Origin: an uncultured Phycisphaerales bacterium
GTDB lineage: Bacteria > Planctomycetota > Phycisphaerae > WQYP01
Reading direction: 5' to 3'
DNA length: 16,162 bases
NCBI GenBank assembly: GCA_903868035.1
Contig: CAIPTQ010000141.1
Location: 1-16,162 of the forward strand
Shown: positions 5,287 to 16,162 of the stretch, piece by piece
Numbering within the stretch: the first letter of the stretch is position 1
How the letters are laid out: each line of letters opens with the position of its first letter
Position numbers and translations under genes: made by a program
Notes under the pieces: model-generated
Seen by the model: the letters and a program-made list of their open reading frames with translations, nothing else
Told to the model about the DNA's origin: nothing
Databases searched by the model: none

Positions 5287-6582
5287 ATGTTCTGTAACCA
5301 ATGCGAGCAGGCCCAAAACACAGTCGGTTGTTCCAGCAATGTTGGCGTTTGCGGAAAATCCGCGGATGTGCAATCGCTTCAGGAGCTTATTTTGTACGGC
5401 CTTAAGGGTATGGCAGCATATGCCCACCACGCCCGCAGGCTGGGCAAATCCGACGAAAACGTCTCGGCGTTCATTGAGGAAGCGCTTTTTTCCACCATGA
5501 CCAACGTCAATTTCGACATCCCGGCACTCCTGGAAATCGCCTTGGAAGTCGGCCGCAAGAATCTCCGCGTCATGGAACTCCTCGACGCGGGCCACATCGA
5601 GCGCTTCGGCAAACCGGCGCCCACGGAAGTATTTGAAGGCACCCATGCCGGGCCGGGGATTTTGATCACGGGGCATGACATGCTGGACCTGTTCAACCTT
5701 CTGAAGGCCTGCGAAGGCACCAAGATCAAGGTCTACACGCACGGCGAGATGCTGCCGGCGCATATGTACCCCGTGCTGCGCGACCATCCGAACATGGGCG
5801 GGCAGTACGGCACGGCCTGGCAGAAGCAGAAGACGGAGTTTTCCGACTTCCCCGGCCCCGTCGTGGCCACCACCAACTGCATCAGCATTCCGCCGTCATC
5901 GTACTCGGGGCGCATGTACACGACGCGCGCCACGCACGCGCCGGGGGCGACGCGGATCGTGAAGGATGATTATTCGCCGGTGATCCGCCAGGCACTGGCG
6001 GGCGAGCCGTGCGTGGAGCATTGCGCGAAGAAATCGACCATCGGGTTCCATCGCACGGTGCTGCTGGATGCCGCCCCGGTGCTCGTGCAGGCGGTGAAGG
6101 ACAAGAAGATATCGCACTTTTACGTGATCGGCGGCTGCGACGGACATGAGGCCTCGCGGAATTTCTTTGACCGCTTCGCCGCCGAGACGCCGAAGGATTC
6201 CTTCATCCTGACGCTGGGCTGCGGCAAGTACCGCATCCGCGCGCACGACCACGGCACGCTGCTGGGCTTCCCGCGCTTGCTGGACATGGGCCAGTGCAAC
6301 GACGCCTACGGGGCGATCATGGTGGCGGTGGCGCTGGCGTCGGCGTTTAACTGCACGGTGAACGATCTGCCGCTGACGTTGTGCATCAGTTGGTTCGAGC
6401 AGAAGGCGGTGGCGGTGCTGCTGACGCTGCTGTCGCTGGGGGTCAAGGGGATCACGATCGGGCCGAATCCGCCGGCGTTCATCACGCCGAATATTTTCAA
6501 GGTGCTGCAGAGCGAGTTTGACCTGCGGCTGACGCCGGCGAACGGGGGCGGGCGGGTGGCGTTGGGGGTGTTGAACAGGTGA
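5287..6582 (+). CDS. hcp: Hybrid cluster protein (hydroxylamine/NO reductase), class III-like
   Basis: This 431-aa cytoplasmic Fe-S protein has GGAG five bases before its ATG. The N-terminal cluster cysteines are C3-x2-C6-x8-C15-x6-C22. All ligands expected for the hybrid Fe-S-O cluster are present in order: H130 (T-G-H-D-M), E154 (H-G-E-M-L), C198 (T-T-N-C), C284 (G-G-C-D-G), C312 (G-C-G-K-Y), C337 (G-Q-C-N-D), E371 and K373 (W-F-E-Q-K-A-V). Class I and II Hcps are about 550 residues with two three-helix bundles in the first domain; here only one bundle separates the cysteine motif from G-P-G-I-L-I-T-G-H. This matches the shortened class III form. Hcp reduces hydroxylamine in vitro and detoxifies nitric oxide in vivo. 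No hcr reductase gene is adjacent, so the electron donor is unknown. Confidence 0.93.
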   Translation: MFCNQCEQAQNTVGCSSNVGVCGKSADVQSLQELILYGLKGMAAYAHHARRLGKSDENVSAFIEEALFSTMTNVNFDIPALLEIALEVGRKNLRVMELLDAGHIERFGKPAPTEVFEGTHAGPGILITGHDMLDLFNLLKACEGTKIKVYTHGEMLPAHMYPVLRDHPNMGGQYGTAWQKQKTEFSDFPGPVVATTNCISIPPSSYSGRMYTTRATHAPGATRIVKDDYSPVIRQALAGEPCVEHCAKKSTIGFHRTVLLDAAPVLVQAVKDKKISHFYVIGGCDGHEASRNFFDRFAAETPKDSFILTLGCGKYRIRAHDHGTLLGFPRLLDMGQCNDAYGAIMVAVALASAFNCTVNDLPLTLCISWFEQKAVAVLLTLLSLGVKGITIGPNPPAFITPNIFKVLQSEFDLRLTPANGGGRVALGVLNR

Positions 6583-10922: not shown

Positions 10923-10994
10923 ATATGGGGATTGAACGCGCGGCGGGCGCGGAAGGCAAGGGGCTGATTACGATGATGAAAGTACGCGCCACGG

Positions 10995-11025
10995 TTGACA
11001 ACATGGGATCAATGGAGACGATATT
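10995..11025 (+). promoter_or_regulatory. Possible promoter of the GH2 gene
   Basis: TTGACA (10995-11000), a perfect -35 hexamer, is followed after 19 bp by GATATT (11020-11025), a 4 of 6 match to the -10. The spacer is longer than optimal. It sits 59 bp ahead of the GH2 start codon in the 161-bp gap between the two divergent genes. Confidence 0.35.
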
Positions 11026-11083
11026 GATTCCACCACCGGCACCGCCGGCGGGGCATGTCGCCAAATTGAAAGGAAGTATTATT

Positions 11084-14000
11084 ATGAAAACGGAAAATCA
11101 CACCCGATCCACCTTGGGTCGAACCTCGCTGCTGCTGGCGGCGAGCGTGGCGGCGGTGCTTTTGCAGACGGGAGCCGTCATGGCCGCGGATTCCCCGCGC
11201 GAGCGGATTTCGATCAATAATGACTGGCGGTTCACGAAGAATGACCCCGCCGGGATCACGGACAACCTGGCGTATCCCCGGAGCGCCGGTGGCGGGGGTG
11301 GCGGGGGTGGCGGCCGCCGCGGCGGGGCGGCAGGTGGTGGGGCGGCCACCGCGGCCGGCGAACCCCAGATCGGACCTTATGCCGGCATTGCCACCGGCGG
11401 CATCGCCGCGTTCATACTGCCGACGGGAAATTCCCTCATCTCCAATCCCGCAAAGCGCTTCCCGAAGCCCGCCGGCAATTACGGCGCGGACATCCCGTAT
11501 GTCAGCCCCACGTTCAATGACACCGCCTGGCGCCAGTTGGACTTGCCGCATGACTTTGGCATTGAAGGACCGTTCCTGGCGCAAGGCGACGGCTCGACGG
11601 GCAAACTTCCCTTCTATGGCGTCGCCTGGTACCGCAAGAAGCTGTCCATCCCCGCCACCGACAGCGGCAAAGAATTCTTCCTCGACCTGGATGGTTCCAT
11701 GTCCTTCACCACCGTCTGGTGCAACGGCCAGATCGTGGGCGGCTGGCCGTATGGCTATTCGTCGTGGCGCGTGGATCTTACTCCTTATGTGAAACCCGGC
11801 GGCGATAATGTTCTGGCCATCCGCCTGGATAACCCCAACAGTTCCTCGCGGTGGTATCCCGGCGGCGGCATCTATCGCAATGTCTGGCTGACCAAGACGG
11901 CGCCCGTGCATGTCGCCCAGTGGGGTACGTATATCACCACGCCCGAGGTTTCCAAGGAATCCGCCACCATCAATCTGAAAGTCACCATCGACAACGACTC
12001 CAAGCAGGATTCCACCGTTTCTGTCGAAACCATCCTCTACGCCCTGGACGCCGCCGGCCAAAAGATTATTACCACGGGCCGGCCCATCGGCGTCTTCCGC
12101 GCCGCTCAGGTTCAGCTTGCCGCAGGCAAATCCGCCACCAGCGAAAGCAAAATCACCCTCTCCAATCCCCATCTCTGGAGCCCCAACACCCCCAATCGCT
12201 ATGTCGCCGTCACCACCGTCACCCCGAACGGCGCTCCCATCGGCGTTCCCATCGATTCCTACGAAACACCCTTTGGCATCCGGAGCATCAAATACGACCC
12301 CGATACCGGCCTGTACGTCAATGGCGAACACTTCAAGCTCAACGGCGTATGCAATCACCACGACCTGGGCGCGCTGGGCACGGCCGTCAACGTCCGGGCC
12401 TTGGAGCGGCAGCTTCAGATGCTCCGCGACATGGGCTGCAACGCCATTCGCACGAGCCACAATCCGCCGGCCCCGGAGTTGCTCGATTTTGCCGACCAGA
12501 TGGGATTCATGGTGCTGGATGAAACCTTCGATACCTGGCAAGGTCATAAATCCGGGCATAATAATGATTACGGCGGCGACATGCTCTTCAACGCCTGGCA
12601 TGAACAGGACACGCGCATGCTGGTGCGCCGCGATCGCAATCACCCGTCGGTCGTCATGTGGAGCATCGGCAACGAAATCGGCGAACAAAGCCAGGGGGCC
12701 AATTCCGCCGTGGCCAAGGAACTGGCCGCGATTGTGCATTCCGAGGATAACACCCGTCAGGTCACGGCCGCGTGTAACGGAGCCGAGTCGGCGGCCAACG
12801 GCTTCAGCACGCTGCTGGACTCCATGGGCTTCAACTACAAACCCGACCTCTATATCTCCTTCCACCAGAATTTTCCGAAACAGTTCTTCTTCAGCACCGA
12901 GTCCGCCTCGACGATTTCTTCCCGGGGCGAATACTTTTTCCCGGTCGTGCCGCCGGGGTTTGGGGCAGTCAGCGCGATTCCGAACCCGGGCGGCGGCGGA
13001 CGGGGACGCGGGCGCGGACCCGCGACCGGTCCGACGACGGGTCCGGCCACGGCACCGGCGGGCGGCGCGGGGAGCGCCAGCGCGGGGATGCCGTATTCGA
13101 TTGACGACCAGCCGCTGTATTTGACGGCGGCGCCCGGAGGCGGAAGGGGAGGCGCTGGAGGTGCTGGTGGCGCCGGTGGTGGTGCCGGCGGGCGGGCGGG
13201 CGGGGCGGGGCGAGGTCGCGGCCCGGTGGACGGGACGGACTTCAACAGCGGCAACGGGGGCGAGCGGCAGATGAGTTCCTACGACCTGTATTATCCGGGC
13301 TGGGCCAGCTCTCCCGACCATGAGTTCTTTGGCCAGGACCACAGCGCCGCGTGTGCCGGCGAATTTGTCTGGACGGGCTGGGATTACATCGGCGAACCGA
13401 CACCCTTCAACTCGCGTTCGAGCTACTTCGGGATCATCGATCTGGCCGGATTCCCGAAGGACCGGTATTACATCTATCAGGCCCACTGGCGGCCGGAATT
13501 GCCGATGGCCCACATCCTGCCGCACTGGAACTGGCCGGAACGCGTCGGCCAGGTCACGCCGGTCCACGTGTACACGTCGGGCGACGAGGCCGAACTGTTC
13601 CTCAATGGCAAGTCGCTGGGCAAGAAGAAGAAGATCTTCGAAGGCGTCAACGGCAACGACGGTCAGCCGCTGGTGGTCAACGGCATCTCGGTTAACGGGC
13701 AACCGGCGTACCGTATCCGGTGGGATGATGTGGTCTACCAGCCGGGCGAGTTGAAAGTGGTCGCGTATAAGGCCGGCAAGGAATGGGCGACCGACACGGT
13801 CAAGACCACCGGTGCCGCCGCGCAACTGAAGCTCAAGCCGGACCGCGCGGAGATTGCCGGCGACGGGCATGACCTGTCGTTCGTGACGCTGACGGTGGCG
13901 GACGCGGCGGGCCTGATGGTGCCGCGGTCGAAGAATATGATCAGCTTCGAAATCTCCGGACCCGGCGAAATCGTGGCGACGGACAACGGCGACGCCACCG

Positions 14001-14152
14001 ACATGAACATCTTCGCACTACCCAAGCGCAACGCCTTTAACGGGCTGGCGCTGGCGATCGTGAAGGCCAAGCGCGGGCAGACCGGCGCGATCACGCTGAC
14101 GGCCAAGGCCGACGGGCTGACGACGGCGACGACGACGATCACGACCAAGTAA
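11084..14152 (+). CDS. Secreted GH2 beta-galactosidase-type glycosidase with Gly-rich insertions
   Basis: The start is the ATG at 11084 (MKTENHTRSTLGRT) with AAGGA upstream; the frame is open back to 10925 but that part lacks homology. A signal peptide ends near A-V-M-A / A-D-S. Domains in the 1022-aa protein: GH2 sugar-binding (about 140-270, L-P-H-D-F-G-I-E-G-P-F, W-Y-P-G-G-G-I-Y-R), Ig-like (270-400), TIM barrel (about 400-810), DUF4982-like (V-Y-T-S-G-D-E-A-E-L-F-L-N-G-K-S-L-G) and a C-terminal Ig-like domain. The acid/base is E531 in S-I-G-N-E-I-G-E; the likely nucleophile is E606 in S-T-E-S-A-S-T-I-S-S-R-G. Both are present, with G-E-F-V-W-T-G-W-D-Y-I-G-E-P downstream. Three low-complexity insertions stand out: about residues 68-95, 633-665 and 682-718, made of G, R, A, P and T. 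The last two interrupt the barrel just after the nucleophile. Beta-galactosidase is likeliest; other beta-glycosides are possible. Confidence 0.9.
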   Translation: MKTENHTRSTLGRTSLLLAASVAAVLLQTGAVMAADSPRERISINNDWRFTKNDPAGITDNLAYPRSAGGGGGGGGGRRGGAAGGGAATAAGEPQIGPYAGIATGGIAAFILPTGNSLISNPAKRFPKPAGNYGADIPYVSPTFNDTAWRQLDLPHDFGIEGPFLAQGDGSTGKLPFYGVAWYRKKLSIPATDSGKEFFLDLDGSMSFTTVWCNGQIVGGWPYGYSSWRVDLTPYVKPGGDNVLAIRLDNPNSSSRWYPGGGIYRNVWLTKTAPVHVAQWGTYITTPEVSKESATINLKVTIDNDSKQDSTVSVETILYALDAAGQKIITTGRPIGVFRAAQVQLAAGKSATSESKITLSNPHLWSPNTPNRYVAVTTVTPNGAPIGVPIDSYETPFGIRSIKYDPDTGLYVNGEHFKLNGVCNHHDLGALGTAVNVRALERQLQMLRDMGCNAIRTSHNPPAPELLDFADQMGFMVLDETFDTWQGHKSGHNNDYGGDMLFNAWHEQDTRMLVRRDRNHPSVVMWSIGNEIGEQSQGANSAVAKELAAIVHSEDNTRQVTAACNGAESAANGFSTLLDSMGFNYKPDLYISFHQNFPKQFFFSTESASTISSRGEYFFPVVPPGFGAVSAIPNPGGGGRGRGRGPATGPTTGPATAPAGGAGSASAGMPYSIDDQPLYLTAAPGGGRGGAGGAGGAGGGAGGRAGGAGRGRGPVDGTDFNSGNGGERQMSSYDLYYPGWASSPDHEFFGQDHSAACAGEFVWTGWDYIGEPTPFNSRSSYFGIIDLAGFPKDRYYIYQAHWRPELPMAHILPHWNWPERVGQVTPVHVYTSGDEAELFLNGKSLGKKKKIFEGVNGNDGQPLVVNGISVNGQPAYRIRWDDVVYQPGELKVVAYKAGKEWATDTVKTTGAAAQLKLKPDRAEIAGDGHDLSFVTLTVADAAGLMVPRSKNMISFEISGPGEIVATDNGDATDMNIFALPKRNAFNGLALAIVKAKRGQTGAITLTAKADGLTTATTTITTK

Positions 14153-14237: not shown

Positions 14238-15323
14238 ATGAAACTCGCATCCTTGACGATGGGGGCCGTGGCGTTGTTGTGCCTGGGCCGCGGAGCCCTG
14301 GCGCTGGACCGGCCCGAGGTGACGTTCAAAATCTTCCAGTTTCCGCCGGACAAAATCCCGCGGATCGACGGCAAGGCCGACGACTGGGCGCTCGTGCCCG
14401 ACGACTATGCCATCGGCGGCGACCAGCTTGTCAATGACTCCAACCCCGCCGTCAAGATGGACCCCAAGAACCTCGACGTGAAAGTCAAGGTCGGCTGGGT
14501 CAAGGGCGAAAGCCGGTTGTACTTTCTTTATGAGGCCACCGACGACGTGTGCGACTATGGCCAGCCCGGGTTGCACAATGACACCTTCGAGATCGTCGTC
14601 GACGGCGACAAGTCCGGCGGCAACCTATTGGCGAGCAACTATCCGGACAAATCCATCAGCCGATGGGATGCCTGGTTCCTGATGCAGGGCGTCCATGCGC
14701 AGAATTACCACATTTTCGTGCCCGCCGTGGACAAAGACTGGTGCATGGCCTGGGGCCCGCAGGCGTGGTGGATCAAGAAGATGCCGTGGTCAAACTACGC
14801 GGCAACGTGTACGGCCAAGCCGGGCGCGGCGGGCAAGGTGACGGCGGAAATGTGGATCACGCCGTTCGACCATGCCGATGCCGCGGGGCCGGAGAAGTCC
14901 ACGCCCAGCAAGCTGGTGGAGGGCGACACGATCGGGTTGTCGTGGGCGATCATGGATTACGACGATCCGAAGTCCGACAAGCACGCGTTCTGGAACCTGT
15001 CGCGCACGCACACGATGTACGGGGACGCGGACCATCTGTGCGCCTTCAAGCTGATGCCTGTGGAGCCGCAGTTCCTCAAGAAGATCGACGCCCAATGGTC
15101 CTTCAAACTCGCCGACGAGAAACAGCGCCTCATCGCCTTCCACGACGAATCTGTCGGCAAAATCACCAGTTGGAAATGGGACTTCGGCGACAACTCCACC
15201 TCCACCGACCCAAACCCCCAACACGCCTACAAAGCCCCCGGCAACTACATCGTAACCCTCGACATCGAAGGCCCGGAAGGAAAATCCCGCCTTTCCAAAG
15301 TGTGGGATGTGACCCTCAAATGA
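14238..15323 (+). CDS. Secreted protein with CBM9-like domain and C-terminal PKD domain
   Basis: GGAGG lies a few bases before the ATG. The 361-aa product has a signal peptide (MKLASLTMGAVALLCLGRG, cleavage near A-L-A / L-D). The mature start contains P-R-I-D-G-K-A-D-D-W, the opening of CBM9-like domains ('carbohydrate family 9 binding domain-like'), and the beta-rich block to about residue 275 fits it (S-R-L-Y-F-L-Y-E-A-T-D-D, F-E-I-V-V-D-G-D). Residues about 290-361 are a PKD domain with the hallmark W-K-W-D-F-G-D-N-S-T-S and P-Q-H-A-Y-K-A-P-G-N-Y-I-V-T-L. Both domain types bind carbohydrate or act as spacers in extracellular enzymes. No catalytic domain is apparent, so a sugar-binding partner for the GH2 enzyme upstream is a reasonable but unproven guess. 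Confidence 0.82.
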   Translation: MKLASLTMGAVALLCLGRGALALDRPEVTFKIFQFPPDKIPRIDGKADDWALVPDDYAIGGDQLVNDSNPAVKMDPKNLDVKVKVGWVKGESRLYFLYEATDDVCDYGQPGLHNDTFEIVVDGDKSGGNLLASNYPDKSISRWDAWFLMQGVHAQNYHIFVPAVDKDWCMAWGPQAWWIKKMPWSNYAATCTAKPGAAGKVTAEMWITPFDHADAAGPEKSTPSKLVEGDTIGLSWAIMDYDDPKSDKHAFWNLSRTHTMYGDADHLCAFKLMPVEPQFLKKIDAQWSFKLADEKQRLIAFHDESVGKITSWKWDFGDNSTSTDPNPQHAYKAPGNYIVTLDIEGPEGKSRLSKVWDVTLK

Positions 15324-15495: not shown

Positions 15496-16162
15496 ATGAA
15501 CAAAAAACACCTGCTCCCCATCATCCCCATCGAGCGCGTCCGCCAAGTCATCCTCCTCCTGCGCGGCCAACGCGTCATCATAGACGCCGACCTCGCACGC
15601 CTCTACGGCGTCACCACCACGCGACTGAATCAACAGGTTCGACGGAACATCGACCGCTTTCCGGAAGATTTCATGTTCCAACTGACCTGGGAGGAGGCCG
15701 ATTCTTTAAGAATGCAAATTGCAATCTTAAACGTACCGCCTGACCACACCGATCCAAGGTCACAAATTGTGACCTTGGACCCACAGGAAAATACACAAGC
15801 ATCTGAAAATGAAGCACTTACATCTGATTCTTTAAGATCACAATTTGCAATCTTAAACGAATCGGATGTCAGCTTGATGTCGCAAACTGCGACATCAAGA
15901 CGAGGCAAACACATCAAATACCGCACCTTCGCCTTCACCGAACACGGGGCGATCATGGCGGCCACCGTCCTTAACAGCCCCAACGCCGTCAAAGCCAGCC
16001 TCTTCGTCGTCCGCGCCTTTGTCCAACTCCGCGAACTCCTCTCCACCCACCGCAACCTCGCCGAAAAACTCAACGATCTGGAACGCAAACTCCAGCACCA
16101 CGACGGACAAATCCTCGACATCATCGACGCCATTCGCAGCCTCATGAAACCTCCTGAGGATC
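15496..16162 (+). CDS. ORF6N-domain DNA-binding protein with internal palindromic repeats, 3' end outside window
   Basis: Reading from the ATG at 15496 gives 222 codons without a stop to the window edge. Residues about 7-70 are an ORF6N domain (PF10543): I-P-I-E-R-V-R-Q-V-I-L-L-L-R-G-Q-R-V-I-I-D-A-D-L-A-R-L-Y-G-V, T-T-R-L-N-Q-Q-V-R-R-N, R-F-P-E-D-F-M-F-Q-L-T. Family members normally go on with a single L-R-S-Q-x-A-T and then R-K-Y-x-x-Y-A-F-T-E-H-G. Here that motif occurs four times over about 65 codons (L-R-M-Q-I-A-I-L, P-R-S-Q-I-V-T-L, L-R-S-Q-F-A-I-L, L-M-S-Q-T-A-T-S) before I-K-Y-R-T-F-A-F-T-E-H-G. The C-terminal part is a coiled coil (A-E-K-L-N-D-L-E-R-K-L). ORF6N genes are common in phages and mobile islands, with roles as antirepressor-like or DNA-binding proteins. 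The repeat segment is clearly A/T-richer than its flanks. Only a weak GGAA precedes the start; it may be coupled to the 50-aa gene. Confidence 0.88.
   Translation, partial: MNKKHLLPIIPIERVRQVILLLRGQRVIIDADLARLYGVTTTRLNQQVRRNIDRFPEDFMFQLTWEEADSLRMQIAILNVPPDHTDPRSQIVTLDPQENTQASENEALTSDSLRSQFAILNESDVSLMSQTATSRRGKHIKYRTFAFTEHGAIMAATVLNSPNAVKASLFVVRAFVQLRELLSTHRNLAEKLNDLERKLQHHDGQILDIIDAIRSLMKPPED
15705..15731. repeat. 27-bp palindrome, unit 1 inside ORF6N gene
   Basis: Left arm TTTAAGAATGCAA, one central A, right arm TTGCAATCTTAAA: 12 of 13 positions pair. It begins at a third codon position and encodes L-R-M-Q-I-A-I-L. Its flanks GATTC and ACG are repeated around unit 3. Confidence 0.9.
15753..15779. 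repeat. 27-bp perfect palindrome, unit 2 inside ORF6N gene
   Basis: Left arm TCCAAGGTCACAA, central A, right arm TTGTGACCTTGGA: all 13 positions pair. It begins at a third codon position and encodes P-R-S-Q-I-V-T-L. Relative to unit 1, five arm positions (2, 3, 7, 9, 10) changed with matching changes in the other arm, and the one mismatch of unit 1 is a pair here. Confidence 0.92.
15831..15857. repeat. 27-bp palindrome, unit 3 inside ORF6N gene
   Basis: Left arm TTTAAGATCACAA, central T, right arm TTGCAATCTTAAA: 11 of 13 positions pair. The right arm is identical to unit 1, and the inner left arm (TCACAA) is identical to unit 2, so it looks like a chimera of the two. It has the same codon phase as the others and encodes L-R-S-Q-F-A-I-L. 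Confidence 0.85.
15873..15899. repeat. 27-bp palindrome, unit 4 inside ORF6N gene
   Basis: Left arm CTTGATGTCGCA (15873-15884), centre AAC, right arm TGCGACATCAAG (15888-15899): 12 perfect pairs. It begins at a third codon position and encodes L-M-S-Q-T-A-T-S, directly ahead of the conserved second half of the protein. Confidence 0.9.

Follow-up and report, generated by a model that had tools for sequence, protein, structure and literature searches.

The window, as the whole stretch of DNA analysed is called here, is 16,162 nucleotides long and breaks off inside a gene for an ORF6N-domain protein. The product of this gene matches Pfam PF10543 (ORF6N) with E=3.8e-31 and 107.7 bits, the curated cut-off being 27.8, and in the PHROG collection it matches the anti-repressor phrog_4792 (E=1.4e-19). 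Other genes of the window encode a hybrid-cluster protein of the hydroxylamine reductase family (5287-6582), a beta-galactosidase of the GalB type (10925-14152) and a PKD-domain protein that looks secreted (14238-15323).

The ORF6N gene contains four inverted repeats, or dyads. The base pairs of a dyad are numbered d1 to d13, counted from the central base outward, and the class of a half-site is given by its bases d5 and d4, in that order. The features are as follows.

15496..16161, forward strand: ORF6N-domain gene, an open reading frame of 222 codons up to the window end, with its 3' end missing
15616..15645, forward strand: predicted recognition helix of a helix-turn-helix, codons 41-50, from the structure model
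15619-15621, forward strand: putative specificity residue T42, in the predicted recognition helix
15622-15624, forward strand: putative specificity residue R43, in the predicted recognition helix
15631-15633, forward strand: putative specificity residue Q46, in the predicted recognition helix
15705..15731, unstranded: dyad unit 1, 12/13 pairs, both half-sites of class TG, as the gene's own helix predicts
15721..15909, forward strand: codons 76-138, a low-confidence loop (pLDDT <50), probably disordered, holding the end of unit 1 and all of units 2-4
15753..15779, unstranded: dyad unit 2, 13/13 pairs, class CA, other than the gene's own
15831..15857, unstranded: dyad unit 3, 11/13 pairs, a hybrid with CA in the left half and TG (own) in the right
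15873..15899, unstranded: dyad unit 4, 12/13 pairs, class CG, other than the gene's own

An earlier note on this DNA had described four 27-bp dyads with 12, 13, 11 and 12 of 13 pairs, and both the coordinates and the pair counts are exact. In all four the centre is a codon's first base, directly preceded by CAA. Because they share one codon phase, their spacings are multiples of 3. Units 1 and 2 differ at six positions of the left arm, five of which are matched by a change on the opposite arm; the sixth, d6, is the mismatch of unit 1. Likewise, units 1 and 4 show six left-arm differences, with five matched and the sixth again at d6, so the arm covariation that the note had reported is indeed present in both comparisons. 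Unit 3 is a diverged duplicate of unit 1. A scan of codons 60-143 and of the remainder of the gene found no other dyad with at least 11 pairs.

The earlier note had also held that the symmetry is kept, and not the peptide alone, and had proposed a codon-preserving shuffle as a check. Among 20,000 within-gene synonymous permutations of the window gene, a single dyad appeared in 37 and two dyads never. Uniform synonymous resampling gave a similar picture: a single dyad in 91 of 20,000 sequences, and two never. The claim stood up in the wider family as well.

The segment concerned, LRSQIATL or a sequence like it, occurs in one to several copies between the RFPxDFMFQLT and AFTEHG motifs of 120 homologous proteins. 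It is palindromic at the DNA level in relatives from genomes labelled as many different phyla, whose DNA was collected through protein or Pfam homology. The arms of the dyad vary from one ORF6N gene to another, yet match each other within a gene. In a set of 139 ORF6N genes having both flanking motifs, a few of them from loci fetched by pattern rather than homology, the best dyad in the stretch between those motifs has 9 pairs or more out of 11 (d2-d12) in 136 genes and the full 11 of 11 in 87. Within-gene synonymous permutation of the same set gives at least 9 pairs in 6.7% and 11 pairs in 0.16% of cases, and 111 of the 139 genes beat all 50 of their own permutations. Stretches of equal length elsewhere in these genes reach 9 pairs in 6 of 262 cases and never more.

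A second set of 151 ORF6N genes, assembled by other rules, includes 6 genes without a recognised unit, 125 with a single unit and 20 with two to five. Unit number thus varies from 0 to 5, as the earlier note had looked for. A tandem array of four ORF6N reading frames about 850 bp apart, together with a fifth partial match, is found at one locus (L185, G029:C66), with a dyad in each frame. Treponema saccharophilum (L667) and Bacteroides finegoldii (L664) have dyads whose CAA core, too, is altered; the core, otherwise invariant, may therefore vary too in remote ORF6N relatives. Each protein search with an ORF6N query gave at least about 8,000 significant matches, and the phage collection yielded only 3 distant relatives. 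In some Acidobacteriaceae genomes (for instance G293 and G324) the match to the L070 query is confined to its initial 100 bases, a portion that belongs to the gene preceding ORF6N, which suggests that an ORF6N gene can be present or absent at one and the same locus.

One group of relatives shows what is being conserved. Genes of the EVVANCDHL type, which seemingly lack the segment, have this DNA dyad too, displaced by one base relative to the reading frame. Since the same dyad occurs in two codon phases, the conserved entity is the DNA and not the peptide. In the structure model of the window protein (mean pLDDT only 67) residues 76-138 have pLDDT <50. In the model of a one-unit homologue (mean pLDDT only 74) the dyad-encoded residues 69-77 form the end of a helix running into a loop, with pLDDT <50 at positions 74-78. 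The dyad-encoded peptide being mostly flexible loop, a constraint on the DNA can prevail there, and two codon phases are possible. A Foldseek search returned no match at E 0.001 or better.

The letters of the dyad are linked to the protein that the gene encodes. Protein positions outside the dyad-encoded segment were scored for association with dyad bases, and the top z values for d4, d5 and d7 are 56, 34 and 34, compared with column medians of 2.2, 0.9 and 0.0. The associated columns are neighbours in the second helix of the predicted helix-turn-helix, where they occupy positions 2, 3 and 6 in the model. Alignment columns 67, 68 and 71, which correspond to T42, R43 and Q46 of the window protein, co-vary with d7, d4 and d5, respectively.

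This association can be written as a table of residues and bases, built on the 125 single-dyad genes. Helix Glu goes with CG (TCGCAA) in 42 of 42 genes, Lys with TC (TTCCAA) in 8 of 8, and Arg with GC (TGCCAA) in 12 of 14. Gln goes with CA (TCACAA) in 57 of 60; the three exceptions are all TG, and each has Arg at the preceding variable position. One gene combines Leu with TT. Lys at the first of these helix positions is accompanied by G at d7 in 67 of 67 genes, and Arg there by A in 30 of 41. Genes with the dyad in phase 1 fit the code in 12 of 12 cases.

The outer arms behave differently. In class CG, 236 of 252 outer pairs (d8-d13) are symmetric over 18 differing arm sequences, and the outer arms follow no protein column clearly (best z 7). 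Reading by the helix does not by itself explain their symmetry; template switching or a second protein contact could maintain it.

The code was derived from the same 125 genes on which the table is built. In held-out DNA, 26 of 27 genes have a predicted class, and the dyad matches it in both halves in 22 of these 26, in one half in 2 and in neither in 2; the four misses all belong to the Arg or Lys class.

A protein-only test covered 360 proteins, the class of the site being inferred from the encoded peptide. Helix and motif were read in 275 and the motif expression failed in 39; another 4 had been part of the DNA set, and the remainder were missed by the expressions for helix or region. The 218 proteins with a single motif, many of them closely related to two queries, pair Glu with CG in 39 of 39 cases, Lys with TC in 89 of 92, Arg-Gln with TG in 11 of 12 and other Gln with CA in 18 of 20. 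Arg with GC, at 42 of 55, is the looser class. Counted by residue pair, the matches are 39/39 for RE, 70/71 for NK and 11/12 for RQ.

Further tests follow the code within genomes, within a bacterial family and within genes; all or, for the paralogues, part of each reuses genes from which the code was read, and the relatives are not independent. Paralogues in the same genome have a unit matching their own helix in 45 of 49 genes (12 genomes), whereas dealing the units at random among same-genome paralogues gives a mean of 20.1 and a maximum of 33 in 5000 deals. Because the code holds among paralogues that share a genome, shared host ancestry is disfavoured as its cause. In Acidobacteriaceae relatives of the L070 gene, which fall into classes CA (16), CG (6) and TG (3), the in-gene unit agrees with the helix in all 25 and the closest upstream unit in 15 of 20; L544, a further gene, has no unit at all. 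Multi-unit genes retain a unit of their own class in 18 of 19 cases (shuffled mean 10.9), and 14 of their 45 units have no half-site of the own class.

The dyad is also present in 8 of 8 complete plasmids from cultured isolates of Bacteroides, Segatella, Sulfuricurvum, Butyrivibrio, Treponema and Haliovirga. In these genes, whose helices were read by expression in three cases and by eye in five, seven dyads fit the helix in both halves; for Butyrivibrio, one half of the in-gene dyad fits, and both halves of the upstream one.

Copies of the dyad are also found in front of ORF6N genes. Over 164 genes from homology-based loci, strong dyads have a density of 1.78 per kb inside the gene and 1.33 per kb between -100 and the start codon. 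The density is 0.30 per kb from -250 to -100 and 0.13 per kb in the 100 bp past the stop, and falls to 0 to 0.08 per kb in flanks beyond 250 bp. The 164 genes have 28 upstream units within 250 bp between them, so the majority have none. Upstream and in-gene units resemble each other more within a gene (0.69 at d4, d5, d7 and d8) than between different genes (0.49). When 47 upstream units are compared with the class of their gene, both halves match in 26, one half in 2 and neither in 19 (shuffled mean 17.5). The Acidobacteriaceae relatives of the L070 gene have an upstream unit in 25 of 30 cases, mainly at -21 to -47, and an in-gene unit mainly at +213, and the identity between the two ends at the unit edges (27-29 bp).

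Gene conversion between the upstream and in-gene copies was considered and set aside. The arms of the two copies agree, with 0 of 2000 shuffles reaching the observed agreement at d4-d7 and likewise at d13. The observed similarity of the centre triplets is reached in 230 of 2000 shuffles for identical and 55 of 2000 for partial agreement. Since the arms agree but the centre triplets are not clearly shared, gene conversion alone is unlikely. In L542 one mismatch is common to the upstream and in-gene copies, as gene conversion would predict.

Pattern searches place the dyad in its genomic context. The pattern GRTCRCAANNTGYGAYC was found in 30 of 31 ORF6N-bearing genomes and its reversed control in 0. 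The search covered one sequence class family, and among the outlying matches listed for these 31 genomes no dispersed copies in unrelated genes were found. The outlying matches at L163 and L176 lie inside other genes and look like chance, and that at L155 sits at a contig end behind promoter-like sequence. At about 2700-3300 of L175 there is a degenerate ORF6N remnant that has kept two strong dyads, of which one lies upstream. Dyads of this type, likewise strong, occur at position 1509 of L161 and positions 1509 and 1569 of L172, with no ORF6N gene on the locus. Among 199 Planctomycetota genomes, GRTCRCAANNTGYGAYC is present in 20 of 43 with an ORF6N gene and 11 of 156 without (reversed control 4 of 199); several of the 11 ORF6N-less matches are asymmetric and chance-like.

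In viral contigs, an ORF6N reading frame was found on 7 of 200 loci among the matches listed by two pattern scans. The patterns GGTCACAANNTGTGACC and GGTCGCAANNTGCGACC occur in many terminator-like phage hairpins, mostly without ORF6N (viral contigs L344-L423 and L224-L343). Because the viral matches are largely ORF6N-less and many are terminator-like, the viral scans are uninformative on whether the dyad is exclusive to ORF6N genes.

Taken as a whole, the evidence points to a protein that recognises its own gene. Since the dyad letters track the predicted DNA-reading helix of the gene's own protein, binding to the self gene is strongly suggested. ORF6N proteins very probably bind, as symmetric dimers, to operators of their own class within their own coding sequence, likely for autoregulation; site specificity, as far as co-variation in sequence can tell, is that dictated by the recognition residues of the gene's own product. 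In this model the dyads would be operators, and nearly every ORF6N gene would retain at least one site of its protein's class. Three residues near the start of the second helix would read d7, d4 and d5 of each half-site in TnnCAA-N-TTGnnA. A symmetric dimer requires a symmetric site, and therefore both arms change at the inner positions when the helix changes. That the regulation is autoregulatory, with an in-gene operator that is joined in some genes by one near the start codon, is a reasonable but less secure expectation; a roadblock or looping would be the way in which the in-gene operator acts, in some genes together with the start-proximal one.

Several other explanations deserve consideration. 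The closest accepts self-recognition and assigns it another role, namely the silencing of incoming genes of the same class or a cross-regulatory network among paralogues, in place of simple autorepression. Multi-unit genes keep their own-class unit and add units of other classes, 19 of the 47 upstream units belong to another class, and genomes often have several ORF6N genes of different classes, tandem arrays such as that at L185 included. However, classes CA and CG are so common that matches between foreign units and paralogues would often arise by chance, and this role is possible but rather unlikely. A quite different idea is that the symmetry has no function, an old palindrome being repaired again and again by template switching at replication so that both arms change together. 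Template switching reportedly repairs stems (PMC8794818) and has been proposed for coding palindromes of Nematomorpha (PMC6649704), and the outer arms are symmetric without following the helix, so that template switching may contribute to them. As a full account it is very improbable, for it predicts no link between dyad bases and the recognition helix, yet that link is very strong, and it predicts no enrichment upstream of the gene.

The two remaining candidates had both been raised in the earlier note, and neither fared well, while its suggestion of binding sites for the protein itself gained strong support from the co-variation of dyad and predicted recognition helix. If the dyads worked as mRNA hairpins governing translation or stability, the ability of the dyad to form a stem with a 3-nt loop, the frequent loss of the innermost pair (62% paired in phase 0) and the position of some upstream copies near the start codon would make sense. 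Sense-strand G.T mismatches are nevertheless not in excess over A.C mismatches in three sets taken together (30 vs 47, 19 vs 6 and 6 vs 15; total 55 vs 68), although they exceed them in phase-1 units alone (the 19 vs 6), and a link with helix residues is not expected of a hairpin, which makes this reading scarcely credible. A palindromic mobile element entering ORF6N genes in frame, in the manner of the Rickettsia elements, would account for the range of unit number, the presence of the site in two codon phases and the end of upstream/in-gene identity at the unit edges. Against it, the dyad is limited to one gene family, where it keeps to one place and the upstream region: the matches inspected in 31 genomes lie mostly within or beside ORF6N genes or a remnant, flanks beyond 250 bp are nearly empty, and the dyad bases follow the gene's own helix. 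This was the least probable of the explanations weighed. Nothing observed points to the note's other suggestion, recombination sites that would diversify the protein.

With self-directed operators as the preferred explanation, the other-class units of the window gene may be candidate targets of paralogous ORF6N proteins. On a bolder reading, about as likely as not, bacterial and phage regulators of the ORF6N and BRO-N kinds are self-addressed, and a gene would take its regulation and its class label along wherever it is moved. Proteins of the same class would recognise incoming copies whatever their promoter, and units of other classes would wire paralogues together. The in-gene site would then be a record of specificity, so that gene sequences alone could reveal the DNA-binding code of thousands of regulators yet to be characterised. 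Because each ORF6N protein brings its own target site, a protein-DNA code could be learned at scale from sequence. Self-directed operators would supply both a target and a recognition code for the ORF6N proteins, a large family of little-known function; no target site for any ORF6N protein is apparent in the accessible parts of the open-licence PMC literature. They would also be a clear case of a DNA-level function imposing the sequence of a protein segment, in different phyla and in both reading phases.

Intragenic operators and palindromes in coding DNA are both known kinds of element. A family-wide operator with a legible code, placed in the coding sequence of the reader's own DNA-binding domain, was not found in open-licence PMC, an absence that is weak evidence. 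An example of an operator inside a gene is lac O2 in lacZ; another is the internal gal operator. The ORF6N sites resemble autoregulatory operators of helix-turn-helix proteins in being symmetric and in having copies both in the promoter region and inside the gene. Unlike the internal operators of lac and gal, they are embedded, in different phyla, in the stretch that codes for the DNA-binding domain of the regulator itself, occur in two codon phases and have bases that follow the gene's own helix.

The Rickettsia palindromic elements are insertions in various genes. They share with the ORF6N dyad the presence of palindromic DNA within open reading frames; the dyad differs in occurring only in a single gene family, where it has one fixed place besides the upstream region. 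PMC6649704 describes the Rickettsia elements as transposable palindromic elements in coding sequences.

The window gene belongs to the network of BRO/antirepressor regulators of phages and bacteria (PF10543, phrog_4792), whose Pfam domains are listed in PMC10111431, and Bro-N genes show a similar in-gene dyad. It has an ACAAnTTGT-like core about 136-148 nt past the domain start (L104, L624-L631, L633, L636 and L640). Of 12 Bro-N genes, one taken from a viral contig and 11 from ORF6N-bearing genomes, 9 have a dyad with at least 9 of 11 pairs; permutations get there in 3.5% of cases, and following stretches of the same length in 0 of 12. A broader scan gave at least 10 pairs in 9 of 25 genes and in 4 of 250 permutations. 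No dyad excess was seen in 7 KilA-N and 3 pRha genes. Whether ORF6N and BRO-N, with its other core, make up a self-addressed superfamily in which the in-gene operator co-evolves with the recognition helix is at present evenly balanced.

Nematomorpha mitochondria offer the other comparison among coding palindromes. Their genes contain perfect repeats of up to 284 bp that encode conserved residues, and template switching is discussed as a possible mechanism (PMC6649704). As there described, they are like the ORF6N dyads in being inverted repeats in protein-coding genes whose arms change together. The ORF6N dyad differs from these repeats in being one 27-bp site, placed in a loop and tied to the helix predicted to read DNA.
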